A model generated the notes under the pieces. It ran no database searches and had not been told where the DNA came from. It was given only the letters and a program-made list of their open reading frames with translations. Made by a program: the position numbers and the translations under genes. A stretch of DNA of 48,092 bases from a bacterium (GTDB lineage: Bacteria > Pseudomonadota > Gammaproteobacteria > Nevskiales > OUC007), in assembly GCA_018222345.1 (NCBI GenBank), contig JAAFAL010000005.1:1-48092 (forward strand), written 5' to 3'. Within the stretch, counting starts at the first letter, position 1, and each line of letters opens with the position of its first letter. Below, piece after piece: positions 35,362 through 48,092 of the stretch.

Positions 35362-38300
35362 ATGCGTACTTCAGCTGGAATGATGTCCGGAAACAGCAAC
35401 CACAACACAGTTTCAGCGGCCATTCGCGCGCATGCGGCGAAGCACCCGGATCGCATCGCGTTCACGTTTCTGAAAGGTTCTGTGGCCGCCCAGCGCGATG
35501 ACCTGTCATATGCGCGCCTGGATCATCAGGCTCGACGGCTTGCCGCGGCATTACAAGCTGGCGGATACACGGGGAAACCGATACTCATTTGTTGCCCCCC
35601 TGGCCCAGAGTTTGTGATTGCGCTACTCGGGTGCGCCTATGCCGGTGCGATCGCAACCCCCTGCTTCCCGCCCAACTTTCGGCTTGAATCCCGGTCAACC
35701 GAACGGTTGACATGGTTGTGCCAAACGGCGCGCCCAGCACTTGCGATCACCAGCGCTGCGCAGCTAGACAAGGCTCGCTGGCACTCGAACAACCAGTTGT
35801 TACGGCTACGCTGGCTTGCCCTATGTGATGAACTCGATGAACTCGCCTCACCAGAGAGCTGGCAAGACCCCCAACTGAATGAGGACGCCCCGGCGTTGCT
35901 GCAATACACGTCCGGGTCCACTGCTGAGCCCAAGGGTGTCATCGTTACGCAAAAAAACCTGATGGCGAATGCCCGGTTTACGGTAGCCAAATTGGGCTTA
36001 AACACACAATCTCGTTGCGTGAGTTGGTTGCCGCCCTACCACGACATGGGCTTGTTTGGCGCGACTTTGGTGCCGTTAATTGTGGGCTTCCCCACTGTAC
36101 AAATGCCCCCCACACAGTTTTTGGCGCGGCCGCGCCAGTGGTTAGCAGCAATCTCTGAGTTTCGCGGCAGCATTTCGCCAGCGCCGAATTTCGCCTACGA
36201 CTATTGCGTAGACCGCATCCCAAGTGAGGCGCGGGCTGGCTTGGACCTGTCGTGCTGGACGCACGCTTTGAATGGCGCTGAACCAATCAGGGCAGACACC
36301 ATGGAACGGTTCGCGCAGGCCTTTGCGGCGAGCGGCTTTGAGCGCAAGCACTTCGTGCCCTGCTACGGCATGGCTGAATCAACATTGATGATCAGCGCCA
36401 ATGCGTCGGGTGATCCGAGGGTCATTAGCGCATCCGTTCGCGCGTTGTCTGCCAAGGTGTTTGAGCGCAGCGGCCAGTCCAAAAATTCTGTGAATTTGGT
36501 CAGTTGTGGAAACCTTGCCTCCGACAACTCCGTCCAGATTGTGGACCCGAAAACGGCCACAACAACGCTCGACGGCCATGTTGGAGAAATCTGGGTGAAC
36601 AGCGACTCAGTCGCGAAAGGCTATTGGAGGAACGAAGCTGCTAGCCAATCTGTGTTTCATGCCCGCTTGGTAAATGGGCCGTGTATTCCTGCCGCGTTCA
36701 GGAAACAACTTTGGCTGAGAACAGGTGATTTGGGCCTGCGGCTCGACGGTGAGCTATATGTCACGGGGCGATTAAAAGACTTGATCATCGTTCGCGGCCG
36801 CAACTATTACCCGACTGACCTAGAGCAGTACGCCTCAGCAAGTCATCCGGCTCTGGCGACCGATGGCGCTGCCGCGTTTTCCATTGATGGCGGCGGTAGC
36901 GAATCCGTCGTATTGCTGCTGGAAATACAGCGCCGGTATCGCAAGTCGGCGCACCAATTGGATTGCGAGTCGATTGCGCTTGACGTCCAGCGAACGGTGC
37001 TTGAACGCTTCGACCTCACGGTTGATTGCATTCACTTGCTTAAGCCCGGCAGCTTAGCGCGCACCACAAGCGGAAAACTGCGGCGTTCAGAATGCGGCCG
37101 CCAGTACAAAACGCACGGTTTTGCCGCACAACGCATTGCAGCCAGTTCAACACCGCCCAGTGATGCCGCTGCAACCAAAACTGTTGGCGCTTGGCACGAG
37201 CGACTGTCAGCGCTCGTGACCAGCATATTGCGCCAACCCAATCATTTGCTGCCAATCGAACACAGCATGGCCGATTTGGGCTTGGACTCGCTCAAACGGA
37301 TGGAGCTCGCCGTGTTGTTGGAAAGTGAATTGGGCATCGCACCACCGCTCGATGCGTTGACGCCAGAATCCACGCTGTCCGAGTTAAACGCATGGCTGGA
37401 GTCAACCTGTGGTGCCGTCAATCAAGGCCCGCTTCCGGTGCGGGAACCCGCCGGAAAGGTCGTCCCACTCCTTCCCGCGCAGCGCCGCTTCTTGCACGAG
37501 GCCAATCACAAACCGCAGCAGTCTGTGATCGTTGCCTACTTGCGAACCCCCACCGGCATCGGGAGCGACACTATTCACGATGCAATTGCCGCGCTCCCGT
37601 ACCAATATGACGCGCTGCGCCTGCGGTTTCGCCGCAGTGCGGGCGCGTGGCAGCAAACCCTCGCGCCTGCAAAAAATGCCTTTGGCTATGAGCGCTTGCT
37701 TGCCAGCGACCTGAACCGCGATGGGCGTGCCGATTTGCGCAACCTGTTATGGGAACGGCTCTACACCCACTTTGACCTAGAGCGAGACCCACCGGCTCAA
37801 GCCATCTGGCTGGACCGCGGGCCCGCCGAGACCGGCATCCTGGCGGTGCGCTTACACCATTTGATTAGCGACGGCACGTCAGAAGTTGCCCTACTACACA
37901 CGCTCGAGAAAAACCTGCGTGCAGTCACGGCCAAGCAAATGTGTCCAATCGCGCCGGTGGATAGCCCAAGTTTCGCCGCGTGGTCACGTGGGCTGGCCGA
38001 AGCCGCAATCGGACACGAGGTTGAATCAGAGCATGGCTATTGGAGAGATACATGCACGGGTGCCCCCACACCGCGGCTGGCAGATGCCCCACCGCCTGTG
38101 ACCACCGGCACCTCCGATCACACGCGGCCGTTTTCACAAACTGCTGCGGCCACCTTGGGCCCGGCGCAAACGCGGCAATTTGAGCATCGCCACCCAAGCT
38201 CAATGACCCAGTACGCCGTCATCGTTGCAGCAGCCACCGCGGCTTGGAAATGCCTGACAGGGCAAGACGACGTACTGCTAGAGCTGGAGAACCATGGCCG

Positions 38301-38766
38301 GCATGCGGTTTACGGCCTGACTCCCAGTATCGCTGTCGGCTGGATGGCCTGCTTCTACCCACTGCGCCTACAAGGCATCGGCACCACCGCCGATGCCGCA
38401 GCGCTGTCGCGTGTTGAACGCGCATTTCGAGCGGTACCGAATCACGGCCTCGGGTATGGCTTGTTAAGGCACACGCGGGGCATGCTTGAAGGCTTACCGA
38501 CGCCGCGCATCGCAATCACGCATCGCGGCCGTTTGGACGAAACCAGCCGTCAAAGCCGGCAATTGCCGGTGTTGGGCTTGGGCGAAGAATCCAATGCGAC
38601 CAGCGCCGACCCCAGTAAGCCGCACTGGCGCCTGCTCACCCAAATCAGCGGTGGTAGCCTTAGATTGTCCATCACATACCGCACCAGCCTCTGCCGCGTT
38701 GAAGATGTGACCAATTGGCGTGATGAGACCATGCGTCAGATTCAAAACCTGATGACCAGTGATTGA
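35362..38766 (+). CDS. FAAL-ACP-condensation domain protein (lipid-activating NRPS-like enzyme)
   Basis: 1134-residue three-domain enzyme. Residues about 10-600 are a fatty acyl-AMP ligase: LQYTSGSTAEPKGV (from about 180), the FAAL-typical VSWLPPYHDMGLFGA and SPAPNFAYDYCVDRI, YGMAEST (335), LRTGDLG (about 453) and Lys572 in RTTSGKLRR. Residues about 610-690 are an acyl carrier domain with phosphopantetheine Ser643 (DLGLDSLKRMEL). Residues about 705-1134 are a condensation domain with LLPAQRRFL, YDALRLRF and an intact His832-His833-LIS-Asp837-Gly838 active site. The enzyme would adenylate a free fatty acid, load it on its own carrier and transfer it to an amine or hydroxyl acceptor. No second adenylation domain is present, so the acceptor must come from elsewhere. 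ATGs at 35380 and 35383 are alternative starts. Confidence 0.9.
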   Translation: MRTSAGMMSGNSNHNTVSAAIRAHAAKHPDRIAFTFLKGSVAAQRDDLSYARLDHQARRLAAALQAGGYTGKPILICCPPGPEFVIALLGCAYAGAIATPCFPPNFRLESRSTERLTWLCQTARPALAITSAAQLDKARWHSNNQLLRLRWLALCDELDELASPESWQDPQLNEDAPALLQYTSGSTAEPKGVIVTQKNLMANARFTVAKLGLNTQSRCVSWLPPYHDMGLFGATLVPLIVGFPTVQMPPTQFLARPRQWLAAISEFRGSISPAPNFAYDYCVDRIPSEARAGLDLSCWTHALNGAEPIRADTMERFAQAFAASGFERKHFVPCYGMAESTLMISANASGDPRVISASVRALSAKVFERSGQSKNSVNLVSCGNLASDNSVQIVDPKTATTTLDGHVGEIWVNSDSVAKGYWRNEAASQSVFHARLVNGPCIPAAFRKQLWLRTGDLGLRLDGELYVTGRLKDLIIVRGRNYYPTDLEQYASASHPALATDGAAAFSIDGGGSESVVLLLEIQRRYRKSAHQLDCESIALDVQRTVLERFDLTVDCIHLLKPGSLARTTSGKLRRSECGRQYKTHGFAAQRIAASSTPPSDAAATKTVGAWHERLSALVTSILRQPNHLLPIEHSMADLGLDSLKRMELAVLLESELGIAPPLDALTPESTLSELNAWLESTCGAVNQGPLPVREPAGKVVPLLPAQRRFLHEANHKPQQSVIVAYLRTPTGIGSDTIHDAIAALPYQYDALRLRFRRSAGAWQQTLAPAKNAFGYERLLASDLNRDGRADLRNLLWERLYTHFDLERDPPAQAIWLDRGPAETGILAVRLHHLISDGTSEVALLHTLEKNLRAVTAKQMCPIAPVDSPSFAAWSRGLAEAAIGHEVESEHGYWRDTCTGAPTPRLADAPPPVTTGTSDHTRPFSQTAAATLGPAQTRQFEHRHPSSMTQYAVIVAAATAAWKCLTGQDDVLLELENHGRHAVYGLTPSIAVGWMACFYPLRLQGIGTTADAAALSRVERAFRAVPNHGLGYGLLRHTRGMLEGLPTPRIAITHRGRLDETSRQSRQLPVLGLGEESNATSADPSKPHWRLLTQISGGSLRLSITYRTSLCRVEDVTNWRDETMRQIQNLMTSD

Positions 38767-38944
38767 ACCACGTGTGATTTGCGTGATTTTAATGGCTCAT
38801 TTGAAGAACCCACACGGCTCCACGTCACAGCGAACCGCCGGAACTGCATGTGGACACTCGTTTGCTCCAATACCGCGTGACAGCTCCAATCCAGTCGTTT
38901 TGTATGATCATTGGGCCATGAATACCGGCAGTTGGCGCGTGTGA
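38759..38944 (+). CDS. Possible small coupled ORF between FAAL and exporter genes
   Basis: 61-codon ORF starting with a GTG inside the last codons of the FAAL gene and ending in a TGA that overlaps the likely GTG start of the exporter by GTGA. An internal ATG at 38792 would give 50 residues. The product has one Cys in the core region (about residue 33) and a hydrophilic C-terminus (YDHWAMNTGSWRV). It has no Gly-Gly site and no resemblance to known leaders. The exporter start lacks its own ribosome-binding site, which would be explained by coupling to this ORF. It may equally be an untranslated gap. I do not recognise it. Confidence 0.3.
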   Translation: MIEPRVICVILMAHLKNPHGSTSQRTAGTACGHSFAPIPRDSSNPVVLYDHWAMNTGSWRV

Positions 38945-41900
38945 GAGCACACGCACGGCGAACCCACACGCCCCACATTCCTCAGTCTCAATCGAGTGAT
39001 TGCGGCGTGTCTTCGGTCGCCATCATGCTGGCTCACCACGGCTGCCATGTTTCGATGGCCGAGTTGCGGCGAGTGTCCGGCATTGCGCGGGATGGTATCG
39101 ACGGCAAGGGCATCGTATCGTTGGCGCGCCACTACGGCTTTGAAGCCAAAGCGTTCCGGCGCGAGCCAGGCAACATGGCTGCATTAGGGTTTCCGCTCAT
39201 CGCGTTTACTGGGCTGGTTCACTTTACCGTCGTCGAGGGGGTATCCGACACGGAGGTCTGGTTGAACGACCCCAACGCTGGCGAGATCAGGCAGCCACTG
39301 GAAGATTTCGCTGAAACCTTCACTGGTGTGGTCTTCCAGTTTCGCAAAGGCGAATCTGCAGCGCAGCGACCGGCGCCCAATGTTCTGCGCGAGCTGCTGC
39401 GCAATTGGTTGCCAAACCATCGGCCATTACTCACGCAGATCACCGCAGCACAGGCAGTGGCAACCGGGCTGAGCTTGTTGAGCGTGTTCAGCTTCGCCCA
39501 CCTGTTTGCGCATCCTAGCGGCAAGCCGCCAGGGGCAGTTGCGACGGCCTTGATGCAGTGGTTTGAGTTTTCAGATCAATCCGTCCTTGCGGCTATGTTG
39601 CCAATAGCCGTCGCCGCTGCGTTTGGCTGTTATGTCATCAAGGGCCGCCTTTTGGACGCGCTCGAATTGCGCCTGGTCAATATTCAAAGTGTCAAACTGG
39701 TTCAGCATGCCTTGGCGCAACCGTTTTCATTTCATAGCTATCGATTTTCTGGGCATCTACACGCGCAGCTGCTCAGTGCGGCAGATATTGCAGCGTCTGT
39801 GCGCCATAACCTGATCGACTCTTGCCTGACCGGCCTGCATATCACGGCCCTCATGCTGGGTCTCGCTTGGTTGTCTCCGGTCGCAGCAATGTGTCTGCTC
39901 GGGGCGGTCACTGTCGTTTTTGTCGTGCAGGCGCTCAGGGTTTCCGCATATGGCGACCATCGTCGCGCGCTGCAGGCCCGCCGGCAATCCCCTGCGGGCA
40001 CACAAGCCAGTATCGAGACGCTGGACACGCGGCGCACCGCGGGCATGGAAGATGAATTGATCCAGAGCGCCATCGGCAGCGCTGCGCACCAGCTTGAATT
40101 GGAATGCGACCAGTTTAGCGACCGTGCGTGGCGCCTGAGTTTGGAAACGTGGTTGCCGCTGCTGCTCCCCGCCGCCGTAATGGCGCTGCTAACTGGCACC
40201 GTTGGCGACGCGTCAACCAGTGTCAATGTGGCCACCGTGGTGGTCGCCAGCCTATGCGCTTGCCTACTTCCAACACTGTACGACCTGCCCTATCAACTGC
40301 CAGCGCTGCGGCGGAAAGTGCTGTTAATCCGCGACATAGAAAGCCATGTCAGCAGGCCGGAAAGCAGCAACAGCAGCCAACTGACTGATGGCAGAGACCT
40401 AGTGGTTGATCGCGTCAGCTTTGGCTATGCCAGCCACAAACCTCCCATCATCGAGTCGCTCAGCCTGACCATCGCTGCAGGCGAGCAACTGGGCCTCACG
40501 GGCCGGTCGGGCAGCGGAAAATCCACGCTGGTCGCCTTGTTGGCAGGCCTTCATCAGCCTTGGCGGGGTTTAATTATTGCTGGCGGTTGCAAGCTGGCTG
40601 ACATGAACCAAGCGCAGCGAGGGCGTTGCATCGCTTGGGTTGGAAAAAGCGGCATCCTGTTCGCTGGGACGATTCGCGACAACCTCAAACTAAGCGATCC
40701 AAAAATAACTGAAAGCGACCTGAGCAATGCTGTCCAAGACGCCGGCTTGACCGACGTTTTGGCCGCCCGTATAGGAGGCATTGACGCAATTGTTGAAGAG
40801 CGCGGTCGCAATTTCAGCGGTGGGCAGCGGCAACGCTTGGAACTGGCACGCGCGCTGGCACGTAATCCCAAAATAATTGTGCTGGACGAAGCCTTGGAAG
40901 CGATCGAGCCTGCGCTGGAAGCCGAGATTCGGAATGCCTTACGACAACGCGGCTGTACTGTTTTGGTCGTCAGCCATCGTGCGAGTTCACTGGCCACCTG
41001 CGACCGGGTTGTTCATATGCAGCGGGGGCAATTGGCCGATGAACCGGAAGTCGCGCCACGCCCACCCACACAGATACCCATGCACAGCGCCAACCCCGCC
41101 GAAGCGTCGTTAAACCTTGATGCCGGTCAAGCCCAACGCCTATGCAGGGTTGGAGCCGCCATGGCTCAATATGCTGGCTTGCACATCCGAGCGGTCGATC
41201 CGGCGCAACAACTGGCCGCTGCAGAGCCCGGCATCGAACAATGGGCGCGTACGGCAGGATTGCGGCGCTATCGCATGCGGTTTACACGGAACGACCGTTG
41301 GCAAGTGGACCATGGCCCGCTCTTGGCGATCACCACCGACACGCGCGAACCCGTCTTCCTGCGCCCAGCGTCGTCACCAAAGCCAAGTGTTGGGCCCCAT
41401 TCGGCATACCGTTGGACGGATGCCGACTGTACCGATCGCCCGCTGAAGCAGCAGCTCATGCAGCGGCTCGGCCATTCAGCCTTTGCATTATTGCCACCAG
41501 CTGACCCATCAACAACTCGGCTATTTGCCTTCTTCAGGTCGGTGGGTGCAAACGCCGCACACGGGATTCGCGGCGCCGGGATGGCAACGGTGGGTGCCAG
41601 CGCTGCCTTAGTGATGCTCACGGTCTTGTTGGGCAGCATTCCGATTACAGCGAAAGAACTGACCAGACCAGATCAATTATTGTTGACTGGCACGGTGCTG
41701 TGCCTATTCACGGCGTGGGTGTGCCTGGACCGAACGGCGCTGACAATGTTCGCCAGAGCGCGCGCTGACTTGCTGCCCAAAATTGCAGCGGCCAGTTGGG
41801 AACGCTTGTTGTCGATACGGCCAGCCAGCCTTCGCTCGGCGCCTGCATCACAAGTGGCCGAACGCGTCTTTGCACCCCAAGCTTTGCTGCAGGCCTTTGA

Positions 41901-43257
41901 TATCGACAGTTTGCACAGCGCAGCCAGCAGCCTGATATGGGTACCCGCAGCGCTCGCGTTGTGGCTGATTTGGCCAACCGAGCCGCAGAGCATGAGTATT
42001 GCTGCCTTGCTGCTGCCCGGCGTGCTGCTGGTGGCAAGCTTAGCGATGGCTTTTTCCGACCGAACATTGCACCAACGTTTGAGGGCCCGGCAACAAACCC
42101 AGCGCCAGTTACTGCTGGATTTGCTGCGCGGCATCGGGCCCTTGCGAGCAATCGACGCCACGTCAGAACTTGCCAGCCGTTGGCAAGCGGCGTTTGCTCA
42201 GCACCTTCAACTTGAACATCAGCTGCGGCGCAACACCCGGCTTGGCAAGGTATTCCAGAACAATTGGCCACTGTTGGCGTGCGTGTGCGTGCTCGGCTGG
42301 GCAGGCCTGCCAACAACAACTGTCGAGGGCGCCGGCCTCGAATCATCGCGTGTCATGCCCGCAGCGCTCACTTGGCTTGCGGTGCTACTTGGCACATCTG
42401 CTGTCGTCGCAGCAGGCATCAAGCTGGCCGAAAACATGGGGTTGATCGGCGCTGCTCGCAACTTGCTTGCGATGCCGGTTGCCACAACCAACCCAACGCA
42501 CGATTTGCCGCCGCCCAGCGGCCATATTGATGTGCGTGATGTGCGATTCGAATACTCCGAACTCGCAGCGCCAGTGCTAGATGGTGTCAGTCTGTCGATC
42601 AACCCGGGGGACGTTGTCGCGCTGGTTGGCGCCTCAGGCAGTGGAAAATCAACGCTGCTACGGTTGATCGCTGGGCTCGACCAAGCCTCAGGCGGGCAGA
42701 TCTGCTATGGAGAAACCCTGCTGAGCCCAGACAACGCACAGGCAATACGGCCATGGATTGGTTTGGTCACTCAAGAGGACCAAACCACTCCGACAACAAT
42801 TCGGCACAACATTGCCGGGCGTTCTGCGCGTGATCTGGCGGCTGTTTGGCATGCCGCGAAATTGGCAGGGATCGATCAAGAGATCGCAGCGATGCCGATG
42901 AACATGCAAACCATTGTGGACGAGCATGTTGTTTCCAGCGGTCAGAAACAGCGCTTGTTCATTGCTGCCCGGCTGTTGCGCCAACCGCGAATTTTGTTGT
43001 TGGACGAATCAACCAGCGTCTTGCACGAAAGCCTACAAGCGCAATTGTTCGAGAACATTCGCGCTCTAGGGTTAACCTGCGTGTTTGCAACCCACCGCGC
43101 CAGTGCCGTTAAGCATGCTGACAAGGCCTACTTGTTTGACTCAGGTCGTGTTGTTGCTAGTGGTGGTTTAGATGACCTCCACGCTGCCGCACCCCAGCTG
43201 GGCTTGAGCGATGACGGTGCGGATTCAGGAGGCACCAAACATGCCGAGAGCCACTGA
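38941..43257 (+). CDS. Fused NHLM-type peptidase-containing ABC exporter (both subunits in one chain)
   Basis: 1438-residue double ABC exporter. Residues about 10-135 are a C39 peptidase domain with Gln15, Cys21 (SSDCGVSSVAIML), His94 (VHFTVVEG) and Asp110 (WLNDPNAGE), all conserved. A membrane domain and first ATPase follow (Walker A Lys527, NFSGGQRQR, Walker B LDEA, Glu650). From about residue 735 a second half begins with the linker domain of NHLM exporter subunit 2 (WQVDHGPLLAITTD), then a membrane domain and a second ATPase (Lys1236, degenerate signature VVSSGQKQR, LLLDESTS with Glu1355). NHLM exporters cut leader peptides and export the product. GTG 38941 is my start choice; TTG 38911 and TTG 38932 are possible. 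The usual cyclic-nucleotide-like N-terminal domain of subunit 2 is missing. Confidence 0.88.
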   Translation: MRAHARRTHTPHIPQSQSSDCGVSSVAIMLAHHGCHVSMAELRRVSGIARDGIDGKGIVSLARHYGFEAKAFRREPGNMAALGFPLIAFTGLVHFTVVEGVSDTEVWLNDPNAGEIRQPLEDFAETFTGVVFQFRKGESAAQRPAPNVLRELLRNWLPNHRPLLTQITAAQAVATGLSLLSVFSFAHLFAHPSGKPPGAVATALMQWFEFSDQSVLAAMLPIAVAAAFGCYVIKGRLLDALELRLVNIQSVKLVQHALAQPFSFHSYRFSGHLHAQLLSAADIAASVRHNLIDSCLTGLHITALMLGLAWLSPVAAMCLLGAVTVVFVVQALRVSAYGDHRRALQARRQSPAGTQASIETLDTRRTAGMEDELIQSAIGSAAHQLELECDQFSDRAWRLSLETWLPLLLPAAVMALLTGTVGDASTSVNVATVVVASLCACLLPTLYDLPYQLPALRRKVLLIRDIESHVSRPESSNSSQLTDGRDLVVDRVSFGYASHKPPIIESLSLTIAAGEQLGLTGRSGSGKSTLVALLAGLHQPWRGLIIAGGCKLADMNQAQRGRCIAWVGKSGILFAGTIRDNLKLSDPKITESDLSNAVQDAGLTDVLAARIGGIDAIVEERGRNFSGGQRQRLELARALARNPKIIVLDEALEAIEPALEAEIRNALRQRGCTVLVVSHRASSLATCDRVVHMQRGQLADEPEVAPRPPTQIPMHSANPAEASLNLDAGQAQRLCRVGAAMAQYAGLHIRAVDPAQQLAAAEPGIEQWARTAGLRRYRMRFTRNDRWQVDHGPLLAITTDTREPVFLRPASSPKPSVGPHSAYRWTDADCTDRPLKQQLMQRLGHSAFALLPPADPSTTRLFAFFRSVGANAAHGIRGAGMATVGASAALVMLTVLLGSIPITAKELTRPDQLLLTGTVLCLFTAWVCLDRTALTMFARARADLLPKIAAASWERLLSIRPASLRSAPASQVAERVFAPQALLQAFDIDSLHSAASSLIWVPAALALWLIWPTEPQSMSIAALLLPGVLLVASLAMAFSDRTLHQRLRARQQTQRQLLLDLLRGIGPLRAIDATSELASRWQAAFAQHLQLEHQLRRNTRLGKVFQNNWPLLACVCVLGWAGLPTTTVEGAGLESSRVMPAALTWLAVLLGTSAVVAAGIKLAENMGLIGAARNLLAMPVATTNPTHDLPPPSGHIDVRDVRFEYSELAAPVLDGVSLSINPGDVVALVGASGSGKSTLLRLIAGLDQASGGQICYGETLLSPDNAQAIRPWIGLVTQEDQTTPTTIRHNIAGRSARDLAAVWHAAKLAGIDQEIAAMPMNMQTIVDEHVVSSGQKQRLFIAARLLRQPRILLLDESTSVLHESLQAQLFENIRALGLTCVFATHRASAVKHADKAYLFDSGRVVASGGLDDLHAAAPQLGLSDDGADSGGTKHAESH

Positions 43258-43444
43258 GCCGCGCAAACCGCCACCCCAAAGAACATCGGGCAAGGCCTTG
43301 TTTCGCAAACAATGCATCGACCGCCTTGCTGCGCCCTTAGAAGCTGACACACCCCCAGCCGCACCACGTGCAAGCCCTGCCGTGGTTTTCGCTGGGGTCG
43401 CGCTATTGCTTTTTGGCTTGCTCAGCAGCGTGCATTTTCTGTGA
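43241..43444 (+). CDS. Truncated HlyD-type membrane fusion protein (N-terminal anchor only)
   Basis: 67-residue protein with a strong AGGAGG site before ATG 43241, starting 17 nt inside the exporter gene. A proline-rich basic N-terminus leads to SGKALFRKQCIDRLAAPLEA, which resembles the start of NHLM-associated HlyD adaptors, and one transmembrane helix (AVVFAGVALLLFGLLSSVHF). The frame then stops exactly where the long periplasmic coiled-coil and lipoyl-like part should begin. HlyD adaptors are normally about 350-450 residues. It is either a decayed adaptor or a natural single-helix accessory protein. The next 135 bp do not continue the gene in any frame I could follow. Confidence 0.65.
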   Translation: MPRATEPRKPPPQRTSGKALFRKQCIDRLAAPLEADTPPAAPRASPAVVFAGVALLLFGLLSSVHFL

Positions 43445-43477
43445 AGCTGGCCAACTCGGGTTCAGCCAGGCTTGATA

Positions 43478-43546
43478 TCAGACGTCGGAACTTTCAAACG
43501 GGGCTGCCGCAGCAACGGCGGCAACCAACTCCAGCTCTAAATCGAC
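43478..43546 (-). pseudogene. Fossil C-terminus of a second Nif11-type precursor
   Basis: On the minus strand, in frame with and downstream of the intact precursor's stop, this 69-nt stretch reads V-D-L followed by ELELVAAVAAAAPFESSDV and a stop. It copies the end of the intact leader (DFELELVAA). At DNA level 43521-43544 and 43623-43646 match at 22 of 24 positions. There is no start codon or leader body. It looks like the leftover of a deleted tandem precursor gene with a different core sequence. Confidence 0.65.
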
Positions 43547-43579
43547 AATCCAGCTTGTTCGGCAGTGCCGCTGCAGCAG

Positions 43580-43834
43580 TTATCCCAGGGGGTCGCTATT
43601 ACAATTCGATGCAGTGGCAGCAGCAACCAACTCAAGCTCAAAATCGTTTAGTTCATCATTCTTCGCATCGAGTACGGCATCTGCGTCTTCAGCCGTAAAT
43701 TCAAATCCATGCTCGCGCCCCAAAGCCACGAGATCGACACCGTTTTTTTCATTGGCGGTGCGCAACATTTGATCGCGCAGGCCTTCGTCAGCGTTGACTT
43801 TGGCCTGAAATGCTTTTGCTTGTTCGATTGACAT
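43580..43834 (-). CDS. Nif11-like leader peptide precursor (RiPP precursor candidate)
   Basis: 84-residue peptide starting MSIEQAKAFQAKVNADEGLR and continuing with VALGREHGFEFTAEDADAV and an acidic end (DELNDFELELVAA), the signature of the Nif11-type/NHLP leader family. Such leaders are cut by C39 peptidase exporters like those on both sides. The presumed core after the leader is very short (AATASNCNSDPLG region) with a single Cys and two Ser. The usual Gly-Gly or Gly-Ala cleavage site is absent and only Ala-Ala/Thr-Ala is available. GAGAA precedes ATG 43834. It lies 117 nt downstream of the two-gene exporter on the same strand and is fronted by a perfect hairpin. Precursor identity is well supported. 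The product is unknown. Confidence 0.82.
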   Translation of the reverse strand: MSIEQAKAFQAKVNADEGLRDQMLRTANEKNGVDLVALGREHGFEFTAEDADAVLDAKNDELNDFELELVAAATASNCNSDPLG

Positions 43835-43842
43835 AGTTATTC

Positions 43843-43878
43843 TCAAAATAGGCATCCAGCATCGGATGCCTATTTTGA
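43843..43878 (-). other. Perfect 15-bp hairpin abutting the precursor ribosome-binding site
   Basis: TCAAAATAGGCATCC (43843-43857) and GGATGCCTATTTTGA (43864-43878) are perfect complements around a 6-nt loop. On the minus strand the stem ends two bases into the GAGAA ribosome-binding site, 8 nt before the precursor ATG. It lacks a T-run outside the stem, so it is more likely an mRNA-stabilising, processing or translation-control hairpin between exporter and precursor than a plain terminator. Confidence 0.75.
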
Positions 43879-43885
43879 TCCTACA

Positions 43886-43924
43886 CGGTGAGCCAGTAAC
43901 ATTCTGTAAAAATAGTGCTCACCG
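43886..43924 (-). repeat. 8-bp inverted repeat in the exporter-precursor gap
   Basis: CGGTGAGC (43886-43893) and GCTCACCG (43917-43924) flank a 23-nt AT-rich interval. It could be an operator for a precursor-specific promoter or a second RNA stem in the intercistronic region. No clear promoter was identified. Confidence 0.4.
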
Positions 43925-43951
43925 CGGCCATCCACACGGCAACTTGTGCCG

Positions 43952-46864
43952 TTACGCCAATTGCCGCTGCGCCAATTTGGCAAACAATCCATTCGCGGCC
44001 ATCAATTCGCTGTAGTTACCTGTTTCGACAATTATTCCGCGGTCCATGACGTGGATCACGTCGGCGGACTCAATGGTAGACAAGCGGTGTGCAATCACTA
44101 CGCGTGTCACCCGCAGTGACGCCAAAGCTTGGCTGACAACCTGCTGCGTGTGGTTGTCCAAAGCACTGGTTGCCTCATCGAAGAACAATATGCGCGGCTT
44201 ATGCACAATTGCACGGGCGATGAGCATGCGCTGGCGCTGCCCGCCGCTGAACGTGCTACCACCATCGTTCACATAGGTATTCATACCCATGGGCAATGCC
44301 TTGATGTCGTCCTCAAGCCCTGCCGCGCGAGCGGCTGCCCAAGCATCGTTGAGCGTCAAACTCGTGCCCTGCCCGACAATGTTGTGAAACACGTCGCCGG
44401 GCTGCACACGGTCGCGCTGCATCACCGTGCCAATCTGGTTGCGTACTGCCTCAACATCCAATTTGGACAGGCTTTGCCCGTCGTAATACAAGTCACCGCT
44501 GTCGGGCGCCTCCAACCCAAGCAGCAACCGCAACAATGTGGATTTTCCGGAGCCCGATCCACCGACGAGCGCCACCATCTGCCCGGGTTGCACCGAGAAG
44601 CTGACGTCGTCTAGCACCTTGGGGCCGTTCGCCCCGTAGGAAAAACTCAAATGCGACACGTCAATCGCGCCGCTTAACGCTCCGGGGTCGTCGCTGTTGT
44701 CGCCGACTTCGGGGATGGCTTCCAGAATGGGCCACGCACGTTCGAACAAGGGCACGGCTTGGGTGGCAGTGAGCAACGCCAAGCCCATACCGAGAAAACC
44801 GGTAAGAAATTGTGTAAACGCAGTAATAACTGCAACAAACTGGCCGGTCGTCAGGCTCTCGGCTGCTTCGGCTGGAACCACAACTGGCACCTCTACCAAT
44901 TGTTCAGTGATCAAGAACACACCCGCAAACATCACAATGCTGGCAAAGATCGGGTATGCCGCCTGAAAGACTTCAAAGTGGTTCTGAACAGCGCCGGCCT
45001 GATACGCCGTGCGCTTTTGCTGAGCGAACTGCTCAGCCCACACCGAAAATGCACGCCGTTCGGCGGCTGCAACACGCAACTTGGCGATGCCAGACAGCAG
45101 TTGCAGCAACAACCCTGACACACGCCCTTCCTGCGCAACCATCTGCCGGTTGAACTGCAGCATGACCCTGACCCGCCACGCCATGACCACGGACGCAATC
45201 AAGGCTAGCGCGAGGCCGATTAACGCTAGTTTGATCTCATAAACGAATAGCAGGCCTAGGTTTACCAGCGAAAAGATGCCCGCCATCATGGCGGCAAGCA
45301 CACCACCCGTGAGTGCCCGCCGCGCCATGGAAACACCTAGCGCGCGCATCGCAAGGTCGCCGGCCTGATAGTCACGGAAGAAGCGACTGGGCAAGCCCAG
45401 CAAACGGTCCATGATCCCGGCTTCGAGTCGCTGCTCGACGCGCGCCTCCATCTTGAGTAGTGCCAGGCCGCGTGTGAGTTCGAGCCCGGCCACGCCAACT
45501 GCGAACAACACGAGTAGCCCCGCAATCACCCAAAGTTGATCTCGATCGGCCAATGGAATGACATCATCCAGCAACATGCCGGTCAAAATTGGCAAGGCGA
45601 GCCCCAGCAAGCCGGCCGCCACGCCGCAGGCCATGATGAGCGCCGCATTGCCACGCAAACCCTCGCCGACCACTGCCCACAAAGCCTTTGCATCGAGTTG
45701 CCGCCTAGGCAAACTTCGTAGCAACGACACCGCCATTGGCTTGCAGGACAAGGCCAGCGTTTCAGTCACGTGCTGACTACGTTGGCTTGTCGGGTCCAAC
45801 AGGGTGTAACCGCCCCGGCTGGGGATTAGCGCCACGGGGCGGTCGTCGGCAGCGAGATACGCCAGCAGTGGGCCGTTGTCGGCCGTCCACCAACGGCCAC
45901 GCAGCGCCACTGGCCGGTGGCGCAAACGAGATGCTCGGCAGATAACGGCAACCGGGTCCTGCAATTGCCGCCCCGGCCTAGCTGCCGGCATCGGCGTAAT
46001 TGTTGCGCCCAATGCTTGTCCAACAAGTTGCAGCGCCGCCAGTGTCGGATTGTTTTGAGCAACCCCTTCGAAGATGGTGTCCGCTTGCTGGGTTGCCGAC
46101 ACGCCTGCCAGCGTTGATACAGCCTGATCAAGCCGACGCTGCTCATGCGCCTTAGACGCCATGAAGCGACGCTGGTCCTCGTGGGCCCTCAACGCTTCGT
46201 TGGCACGCAATTGCAACATCACATGCCGGTGAAAATACGCCAAGCTGTGCGTGAACTGATCGGATGACACCATCTCTCGGGTCGGCACACACGTGACGTT
46301 TGTCTCAGACGCTGTCGCGGTGACCCACAGGGGCTGCGGCAGGGGCACCGCCAAATTTGCAGGCGGTGATTGCTCGGCACCCGCAAACGCGATGTGGCCT
46401 TGCAACACGCTGACCCAACCCAGCTGTGTGTCGCAGACGCCGGATTCACCTTCGGGTAGCGATGACTCTTGGCCATGTGGCAGTGACGCGCTGTGCACCG
46501 GCGCGGCGCCGGCATCTAAAACCCCTGCACACTGGCTGAGCCATCCGTCGAGCCAAGGTGCGGCCACTTCGGGGGCGTTCAGAACAGCGTCGATCGGCAA
46601 CTCGAGCAACTTGGCCCGCCGCCCCAGCGCGAGGAGCTCGAAGCCAAACTCCCGGGCCATTGCTTGGACGGGCAACAGAACATCCCCTGCTTTTACACCG
46701 AACAAGAACCGACGCCCCGCCCCAGTGCGCAGATACAACTCGACGCGCCCGGATTCGACAAACCACAACTTGTCGTCAGCGTCCATCGCCAGCGCATTCG
46801 GGCCGTTCAGCTCGAGTGCGCTGCCCCGCGCTCTTAGACTTTCTGGCAACAAATCAGGCCGCAC
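43952..46864 (-). CDS. NHLM bacteriocin-system ABC exporter, subunit 2 (permease/ATPase)
   Basis: 970-residue ABC exporter of the NHLM type that lacks a C39 domain. The N-terminal 130 residues form a cyclic-nucleotide-binding-like fold (KLWFVESGRVELYLRTGAG). A linker domain (WWTADNGPLLAYLA), six-helix membrane domain and ATPase follow (Walker A Lys774, TFSGGQRQRM, FFDEATSALD, AHRLS). It works with the peptidase-containing subunit encoded just upstream. An ATG at 46888 gives eight more residues, but the GTG at 46864 has GGAG 7 nt upstream and overlaps the previous stop by 11 nt, so I prefer it. It is followed by the precursor gene, a typical exporter-cargo arrangement. Catalytic motifs are intact. 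Confidence 0.9.
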   Translation of the reverse strand: MRPDLLPESLRARGSALELNGPNALAMDADDKLWFVESGRVELYLRTGAGRRFLFGVKAGDVLLPVQAMAREFGFELLALGRRAKLLELPIDAVLNAPEVAAPWLDGWLSQCAGVLDAGAAPVHSASLPHGQESSLPEGESGVCDTQLGWVSVLQGHIAFAGAEQSPPANLAVPLPQPLWVTATASETNVTCVPTREMVSSDQFTHSLAYFHRHVMLQLRANEALRAHEDQRRFMASKAHEQRRLDQAVSTLAGVSATQQADTIFEGVAQNNPTLAALQLVGQALGATITPMPAARPGRQLQDPVAVICRASRLRHRPVALRGRWWTADNGPLLAYLAADDRPVALIPSRGGYTLLDPTSQRSQHVTETLALSCKPMAVSLLRSLPRRQLDAKALWAVVGEGLRGNAALIMACGVAAGLLGLALPILTGMLLDDVIPLADRDQLWVIAGLLVLFAVGVAGLELTRGLALLKMEARVEQRLEAGIMDRLLGLPSRFFRDYQAGDLAMRALGVSMARRALTGGVLAAMMAGIFSLVNLGLLFVYEIKLALIGLALALIASVVMAWRVRVMLQFNRQMVAQEGRVSGLLLQLLSGIAKLRVAAAERRAFSVWAEQFAQQKRTAYQAGAVQNHFEVFQAAYPIFASIVMFAGVFLITEQLVEVPVVVPAEAAESLTTGQFVAVITAFTQFLTGFLGMGLALLTATQAVPLFERAWPILEAIPEVGDNSDDPGALSGAIDVSHLSFSYGANGPKVLDDVSFSVQPGQMVALVGGSGSGKSTLLRLLLGLEAPDSGDLYYDGQSLSKLDVEAVRNQIGTVMQRDRVQPGDVFHNIVGQGTSLTLNDAWAAARAAGLEDDIKALPMGMNTYVNDGGSTFSGGQRQRMLIARAIVHKPRILFFDEATSALDNHTQQVVSQALASLRVTRVVIAHRLSTIESADVIHVMDRGIIVETGNYSELMAANGLFAKLAQRQLA

Positions 46865-48092
46865 CCAACAACTCCACGTAGTGCCCATCGGCGGACACTA
46901 AGTCGCGATGGCTGCCTCGCTCTGCAATCTCCCCGAATTTGAGAACGATAATCTCGTCGCAATCACGAATTGCCGACAGGCGGTGCGAAACAAGTAAAAC
47001 CGTGCACCCGCGCCGCCGCAGGTTCTCCATGACCTGCATCTCGCTGTGCGTATCCAGAGCACTGGTCGCTTCATCCAACACGAGAATGCTCGGGTCATTC
47101 GCCAACGCACGGGCGAGCTCAAGTCGTTGCAGCTGCCCGCCGCTGAAGTTGGTTCCGCCTTCACTGATCGGACTGTCGTACCCACCGGGGCGCGACATAA
47201 TTTCGTCGTGTATGCATGCGTCGCGGCACGCGCGCACGATGCTGGTTTCCGGAAGCGTTGGGTCCCAAAGGCACACATTGTCACGAACAGTGCCTTGATA
47301 AACCATGATCTCTTGGTCAACCAGCGCCAAGGACCGCGAAAGCATATCGCGTGCGATATTCGTTCGCGGTTGACCGTCAAACAAGATATCGCCAGACCAA
47401 GGCTGATGCAGATTGCAAACGAGTTTTGCGATGGTTGACTTACCACTGCCCGACCCGCCCACCAATGCCGTGCGGGAACCGGGCTCCAACGACAAATCAA
47501 GCTCTTTGATCAGCGGCCTGCCGAGGCTGTAGTAGCCAAAGCTAAGGCCGCGAACCTCGACTGCGCCAGAAAGCTTACTGCTTGGGGCCACTGTGGATGA
47601 CAGGACGTTACTTTCCTGCTCGTCGGTTAATGCCGCCTCATTCATGCCCAAGCCGCGTTGAGGCGTGTAGCGCATGACATCGTCGATGCGCGACAGGTCG
47701 GCCTCCGCAGTTTGCAACATTGAACCGACCTGCACGAACCGCGCAACCGGCGCCAAGAAATTTGCTAGCAGGTAGTAGAAGGCGATGACTGTTCCCATGG
47801 ACATGTTGCCGTCCATCACGCGCAAGCTGCCAACCACCAACACCGCAGTCACGTTGATACTTTCCGTGAGTTTCGGAAAGATGCCCAACACGCGGTCTGT
47901 CAACCCCAAGCGTTGTTCAGCATTGATGACTTTGCCAAAGTTGCCGATCCACTTTGTGTAGTAATCCGCTTCACCGCCTGAGGCCTTGAGGGTTTCGATA
48001 CTTTGCAAGCCACTCATCGTTGTGCCCACCAGCTTCCCGGTGTCTTGCTGTAGGCGTCGGCTGGCGTCAGCGCGCAGGGCATTGAACAAGCG
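46854..48092 (-). CDS. NHLM bacteriocin-system ABC exporter, subunit 1 (partial, runs off right edge)
   Basis: C-terminal 412 codons of an exporter subunit; the 5' part lies beyond the window. Visible are the end of the membrane domain (VIAFYYLLANFLAPVARFVQ) and a complete ATPase: Walker A GGSGSGKST, NFSGGQLQRLELARAL, Walker B LVLDEATSALD and H-loop SHRLS. In this family the missing N-terminus would carry the C39 leader peptidase and the gene would follow an HlyD adaptor, but neither can be confirmed here. Translation is coupled to subunit 2 by overlapping ends. The first ATPase of the plus-strand fusion protein is its paralogue. Confidence 0.88.
   Translation of the reverse strand, partial: RLFNALRADASRRLQQDTGKLVGTTMSGLQSIETLKASGGEADYYTKWIGNFGKVINAEQRLGLTDRVLGIFPKLTESINVTAVLVVGSLRVMDGNMSMGTVIAFYYLLANFLAPVARFVQVGSMLQTAEADLSRIDDVMRYTPQRGLGMNEAALTDEQESNVLSSTVAPSSKLSGAVEVRGLSFGYYSLGRPLIKELDLSLEPGSRTALVGGSGSGKSTIAKLVCNLHQPWSGDILFDGQPRTNIARDMLSRSLALVDQEIMVYQGTVRDNVCLWDPTLPETSIVRACRDACIHDEIMSRPGGYDSPISEGGTNFSGGQLQRLELARALANDPSILVLDEATSALDTHSEMQVMENLRRRGCTVLLVSHRLSAIRDCDEIIVLKFGEIAERGSHRDLVSADGHYVELLGAA

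Follow-up and report, generated by a model that had tools for sequence, protein, structure and literature searches.

The window, i.e. the whole stretch of 48,092 nucleotides analysed here, harbours two convergent operons between positions 35362 and 48092. The plus-strand operon encodes a multidomain enzyme, termed FAAL-ACP-E after its fatty acyl-AMP ligase (FAAL), carrier (ACP) and predicted epimerization-type (E) domains, together with a fused exporter, while the minus-strand operon comprises a Nif11-leader RiPP precursor and subunits of a second exporter. The individual features are as follows:

35362..38766, plus strand: FAAL-ACP-E protein of 1134 aa, candidate maturase (PF00501, PF23024, PF00550 and PF00668)
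35404..37131, plus strand: fatty acyl-AMP ligase domain (aa 15-590), core adenylation motifs kept across the FAAL-ACP-E family
37201..37395, plus strand: carrier domain (aa 614-678) with GLDSL and the phosphopantetheine Ser643 (37288-37290), Ser invariant in 9/9 members
37450..38736, plus strand: predicted epimerization-type domain (aa 697-1125) with HHLISDG, ENHGR, VGWMACFYP and PNHGLGYGLL
38911..43257, plus strand: fused exporter with C39 peptidase, ABC1 and ABC2 in a single chain of 1448 aa (family matches)
43241..43444, plus strand: HlyD N-terminal stub of 67 aa with one TM, overlapping the end of the fused exporter
43478..43543, minus strand: end of a decayed second Nif11 precursor (DLELELVAAVAAAAPFESSDV) in the same frame and without a start, directly after the intact gene
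43580..43834, minus strand: Nif11-leader RiPP precursor (TIGR03798 / PF07862), leader end FELELVAAA, core TASNCNSDPLG
43843..43878, minus strand: perfect 16-bp hairpin in the gap between ABC2 and Nif11 (RNA fold -24.9 kcal/mol, z = -7.0)
43952..46888, minus strand: NHLM ABC2 exporter subunit (TIGR03797, 840 bits, cut-off 709)
46854..48092, minus strand: C-terminal part of the NHLM ABC1 exporter subunit (family match), remainder on contig C194 (L045)

The first-pass annotation had described the enzyme as a FAAL fused to a carrier and a PF00668 domain containing HHLISDG, with no amino-acid adenylation (A) domain. This architecture is borne out by the family matches, among which no amino-acid A domain was found in the chain. 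The enzyme matches FAAL families, and the closest solved structures to its adenylation domain are likewise FAAL structures. Nine FAAL-ACP-E proteins were found by their own sequence in Pseudomonadota and Verrucomicrobiota, with 31-34% identity to the window enzyme, and an alignment of this family displays invariant FAAL motifs.

The last domain had been read as an intact condensation (C) domain. However, its motifs, phylogeny and predicted fold assign it to the epimerization type of NRPS domains. The E2, E4 (ENHGR), E5 (VGWMACFYP) and E6 (PNHGLGYG) motifs are present in the window domain and the C5 motif is absent. Moreover, the E catalytic residues His, His, Asp and Glu (Glu976 in the window), as well as an Arg, are invariant in all nine family members. 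Two motifs deviate from the canonical E domain: NYLG of E7 is converted to an xYRG-like sequence, with Leu replaced by Arg in 9/9 members (THRG in the window, with His replacing Tyr), and HHxxxDG reads HHxxxDA/V in eight of the nine. The match to the E-domain family TIGR01720 reaches 34.7 bits and lies below the cut-off of 74.2 bits. Among solved structures, PvdL chains and tyrocidine synthetase E domains match best; within PvdL the match falls on the E domain, compared to a mere 7.7 bits for the genuine C domain of that chain. Scored against a profile of the family, starter C domains reach about 30-80 bits versus 200-238 bits for E domains. In a tree of 43 domains the FAAL-ACP-E family forms one group (100/96), and family and E domains together are split from all C domains (100/100). 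Since the family, the E domains and the C domains meet at one node, the tree supports a grouping with E domains, not a descent from within them. For an AlphaFold2 model of the domain (pLDDT 88), the top 13 PDB matches are all E-domain entries. Lacking the C5 motif and standing apart from the C clade, the domain does not qualify as an acyl-condensing NRPS C domain.

The kinship to E domains extends to the complete chain, which resembles the A-T-E initiation modules TycA and GrsA, along with the E domain of PvdL, in domain order and size; the E domains of all three are nearest to the last domain in sequence, tree and fold. In contrast to TycA and GrsA, a FAAL takes the place of the amino-acid A domain, no NRPS is located downstream, and the E7 and HHxxxDG motifs are altered. 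The shared order and similar length, the fully retained catalytic residues and the E domains as best fold matches would suit a genuine epimerase: the FAAL-like domain would load an acid with an alpha substituent, or else the core peptide by its C-terminal carboxylate, and the E domain would invert the carbon concerned prior to release, as in GrsA and TycA. This main rival to the acyl transfer proposed below is considered unlikely: the adenylation domain is a FAAL by family and structure matches, E7 and HHxxxDG are changed throughout most of the family, and the only core of the window, as well as one core of locus L060, ends in Gly, so that C-terminal epimerization would be void there.

The C-domain superfamily includes recruiting domains such as X or interface domains. 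The divergence of the last domain, which is 26-29% identical between the window and the other members, could reflect a non-catalytic docking platform that presents acyl-ACP or peptide to an enzyme encoded elsewhere. With the catalytic His, Asp, Glu and Arg invariant in the family and no further shared enzyme seen in the loci, such a role is very unlikely.

The Nif11 leader gene recognized in the first-pass annotation is confirmed by a TIGR03798 match above cut-off (53.8 versus 32.3 bits) and is the only Nif11 match across the 3.0-Mb genome. Its start is probably located at 43834 (MSIEQ...) instead of the listed 43855, because the upstream ATG lies inside the strong hairpin and the relatives align from MSIEQ. 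The hairpin itself is a candidate terminator or attenuator and may set the dose of the precursor. The cleavage motif at the leader end is directly followed by the short core, and an exporter gene is situated about 0.1 kb upstream. A precursor-like small ORF was found neither at 34.9-35.4 kb nor at 38.7-39.0 kb. Ten precursors of the relatives were scanned; all match TIGR03798 and no other family, two of them above the cut-off.

Across the loci, 17 cores with a length of 6-24 aa could be delineated. All contain Ser or Thr, whereas Lys is found in only three and absent from 14; the window core contains neither Lys nor Arg. Ser accounts for 15% of the residues in cores compared to 6% in leaders, and position 5 is Cys in the window, L060, L185 and L186. 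Some cores recur between genomes, namely GSVSCIKGDI / GSTSCIKNDV and LPINSSSGATEMS / LPINCSSGAVRMQ / LPVNVSGGNGGIPG. Nucleophiles found in every core are the alpha-amine and Ser/Thr hydroxyls. A C-terminal Ser or Cys was considered as a general acylation site and discarded: it fits 6/6 Roseibacillus cores, but the other loci end otherwise. Two further Roseibacillus loci away from the main locus (L157 on C165, L163 on C155) contain more Nif11 precursors, whose leaders are almost the same while their tiny cores differ.

Both C39/NHLM export systems claimed for this region are present, one as the fused plus-strand chain and the other as the minus-strand ABC2 and ABC1 with its C39 part on contig C194. 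The window contig stops at 48092, inside ABC1, and a 30-bp overlap joins it to the end of C194, resulting in an in-frame ABC1 of 745 aa. C194 (L045) contributes the C39 half, an NHLM HlyD (312.7 bits, cut-off 156.2) and a TIGR03896 cNMP-binding protein; further out, an IS3 transposase fragment and unrelated genes are located. Of the HlyD and the maturase that had been sought beyond 48092, the former is provided by C194 and the latter was not seen among the ORFs scanned there. By family match and sequence reading, both systems possess the C39 Cys/His/Asp, the TMD and the NBD of NHLM/PCAT exporters, and in the fused chain the C39 residues and both NBDs look intact.

Full-length relatives of the fused exporter exist in L184 and L185 (29-32% identity over about 1350 residues), and by BLAST score the fused exporters are closer to each other than to the canonical subunits of the window. 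In L184 the fused exporter is accompanied by a canonical NHLM set, the arrangement also seen in the window, while in L185 it is the only exporter. Judged from these relationships, the fused exporter belongs to the FAAL-ACP-E system. Shortened HlyD-like proteins are encoded near the enzyme in the window (43241-43444, 67 aa), L185 (4705-5196, 163 aa) and L133 (271-861, 196 aa), alongside the fused exporter in two of the three loci; the L185 and L133 copies have no Pfam match.

The first-pass annotation had allowed for two unrelated products as an alternative, which the convergent orientation of the operons, each with an exporter of its own, would suit. This alternative is weakened by L184, which repeats the two-exporter layout by pairing both exporter types with one FAAL-ACP-E, and by L185, where Nif11, the fused exporter, a short HlyD, FAAL-ACP-E and a second Nif11 gene follow each other in one direction. 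In both L052 (Roseibacillus) and L185 (G1375), precursors, enzyme and exporter form one co-directional block, and two separate products are thus scarcely probable.

A genome search for FAAL-ACP fusions co-occurring with leaders and exporters, as proposed in the first-pass annotation, revealed a strong association of FAAL-ACP-E with Nif11 peptide genes. In all seven loci that can be read to either side of the enzyme, precursors are its neighbours: once in the window, three times in L052 and twice each in L060, L183, L184, L185 (flanking the enzyme) and L186. An enzyme without a leader gene, the pattern that the first-pass annotation had named as refuting its idea, was not encountered among these seven. 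NHLM exporter parts lie beside the enzyme in 8/9 loci, the exception being L186, in which two Nif11 genes are present and no NHLM exporter is located within about 10 kb. In a named scan with the window enzyme as query, which yielded 80 FAAL loci, an E-type domain at the chain end was found in only three: L052 (Verrucomicrobiota), L056 and L060 (Rhodospirillaceae). All three contain NHLM exporter genes, for which the chance is about 1e-5, while C39 and Nif11 matches are both absent from the remaining 77. Nif11 genes are present in L052 and L060; L056 is cut by the contig start.

Five further members (L133 of G582, L183, L184, L185 and L186) emerged from enzyme searches that were blind to the neighbours, and 5/5 have Nif11 or NHLM-type neighbours. 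L183 and L184 combine Nif11, HlyD, ABC1, ABC2 and a cNMP-type gene, and in L133 the short HlyD-like gene adjoins the enzyme on a contig of 4.4 kb. The Pfam Nif11 model had no match in G829 and G582, where both loci are cut by contig ends; several precursors score low. No other maturase was seen among the ORFs scanned in the FAAL-ACP-E loci.

The Oaa systems of gut Clostridia (PMC13142362), which attach fatty acids to free amines, likewise combine a ligase and a carrier with a domain of the C superfamily and lack both an amino-acid A domain and a second carrier. The absence of any other supplier of an acceptor, on which the first-pass annotation had relied, is therefore no argument by itself. 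By the same logic FAAL-ACP-E could join a fatty acid to a free amine, yielding a small amide, and merely share its cluster with the peptide. This is quite unlikely, because Nif11 precursors adjoin the enzyme in every readable locus of two phyla. Moreover, the Oaa parts are separate proteins, often with DHxxxDS and a C domain nearest to starter C domains, and the accessible portion of that report does not mention a RiPP precursor; in contrast, the window chain is fused, carries HHxxxD and ends in an E-type domain.

Taken together, FAAL-ACP-E is proposed to be a dedicated maturation enzyme of short Nif11-leader RiPPs that fatty-acylates them, a reading to which we assign a probability of about 0.6. 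The FAAL would adenylate a free fatty acid and load it onto the fused ACP, from which the terminal E-type domain would move the acyl group to the Nif11 peptide. The C39 exporter would then cut after the AAA/AG/GG end of the leader and secrete a lipopeptide of 6-24 residues. The likely acceptor is either a Ser/Thr hydroxyl or, once the leader has been removed, the alpha-amine of the core; Lys is improbable as a general acylation site. As the C39 peptidase works during export, the core N-terminus could be acylated only if the leader had been removed earlier; otherwise a side chain would be acylated. What the analysis shows directly is the domain content, the intact catalytic residues and the co-occurrence of enzyme and precursors; that a fatty acid is the substrate, that the E-type domain transfers it and which atom accepts it are inferred. 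As a plain fatty acyl group has no alpha stereocentre, transfer would be the simplest use of the last domain. Counting against it is the retained epimerase Glu, and to our knowledge no E domain transfers acyl groups. Of the earlier suggestion that a condensation domain may acylate the ribosomal peptide, the placement of the FAAL enzyme in a Nif11 pathway holds and the condensation type does not; with an E-type domain, the suggestion turns into a less certain one about an E-type transferase. That the loci represent a class of lipidated RiPPs, acylated by an NRPS-type FAAL-ACP and an E-type domain converted into an acyltransferase, has roughly even odds.

In common with Nif11/NHLM RiPPs (Haft 2010, PMC2887384), the system comprises a TIGR03798 leader, a short variable core, paralogous precursors and a TIGR03794/03796/03797 exporter. 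Here, however, FAAL-ACP-E replaces LanM, YcaO and other described maturases, none of which was found in the scanned ORFs, and the leader end is DFELEMVAAG-like, compared to the published Nif11 consensus ELSDEELEAVAGG. The terms acyl and AMP-binding do not occur in the founding paper (PMC2887384). In the literature consulted (PMC13060382, PMC12636315), fatty acylation of RiPPs proceeds either through GNATs or through the lipoprotein pathway. The present proposal shares with selidamides and further RiPPs lipidated by GNATs (PMC9505594, PMC13060382) a fatty acid on a ribosomal peptide and C39/NHLM-type export; those peptides are acylated on Lys/Orn side chains, for which Arg can serve as source, or at the N-terminus of class III lanthipeptides. 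In contrast to selidamides, Lys is missing from most cores, and the fatty acid would be donated by the ACP of the same chain after loading by the FAAL; no GNAT was found among the scanned ORFs of the FAAL-ACP-E loci, which are a part of all ORFs. A literature search with subscription journals mostly outside its coverage retrieved no report linking FAAL to Nif11 precursors.

FAAL-ACP-E beside Nif11 genes points to a putative new route by which fatty acids may be linked to gene-encoded peptides. As FAALs load free fatty acids directly, this route would connect NRPS lipoinitiation with peptides of freely changeable sequence. We know of no earlier NRPS-logic RiPP maturase and of no E-type domain with a transfer function; if correct, the proposal would describe the first of each, with an epimerization-type domain in a new job.

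The distribution of FAAL-ACP-E is rare and patchy. It was found in 6/317 genomes in the order of L060 and, besides the query genome, in one of 398 genomes of the phylum; surveys of 289 genomes from the L052 order and of 357 sampled genomes from the L060 class detected no other. Adjacent transposase-like genes (L045 14436-14969, L185 9061-10981) agree with this pattern. Several candidates were rejected: the FAAL chain of G094 contains a C domain of NRPS type and is cut by the contig end, the E-type domain is unmatched in the FAALs of G007, G076 and G085 and in the FAAL-ACP of L187, G563 and G668 encode FAAL proteins of about 1130-1150 aa that are part of NRPS clusters and not of the family, the plasmid matches listed are mainly NRPS FAALs, and the single IMG/VR locus is NRPS-type. 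In L187 (8034-12646), a P450-like gene precedes the 1089-aa FAAL-ACP protein, the C-terminal part of which is unassigned. Finally, an AraC-type regulator gene recurs near Nif11 in L060 (1676-2728), L183 (17395-18444), L184 (1072-2238) and L186 (4837-5903, split in two frames), with Pfam HTH_18 in the two copies tested.
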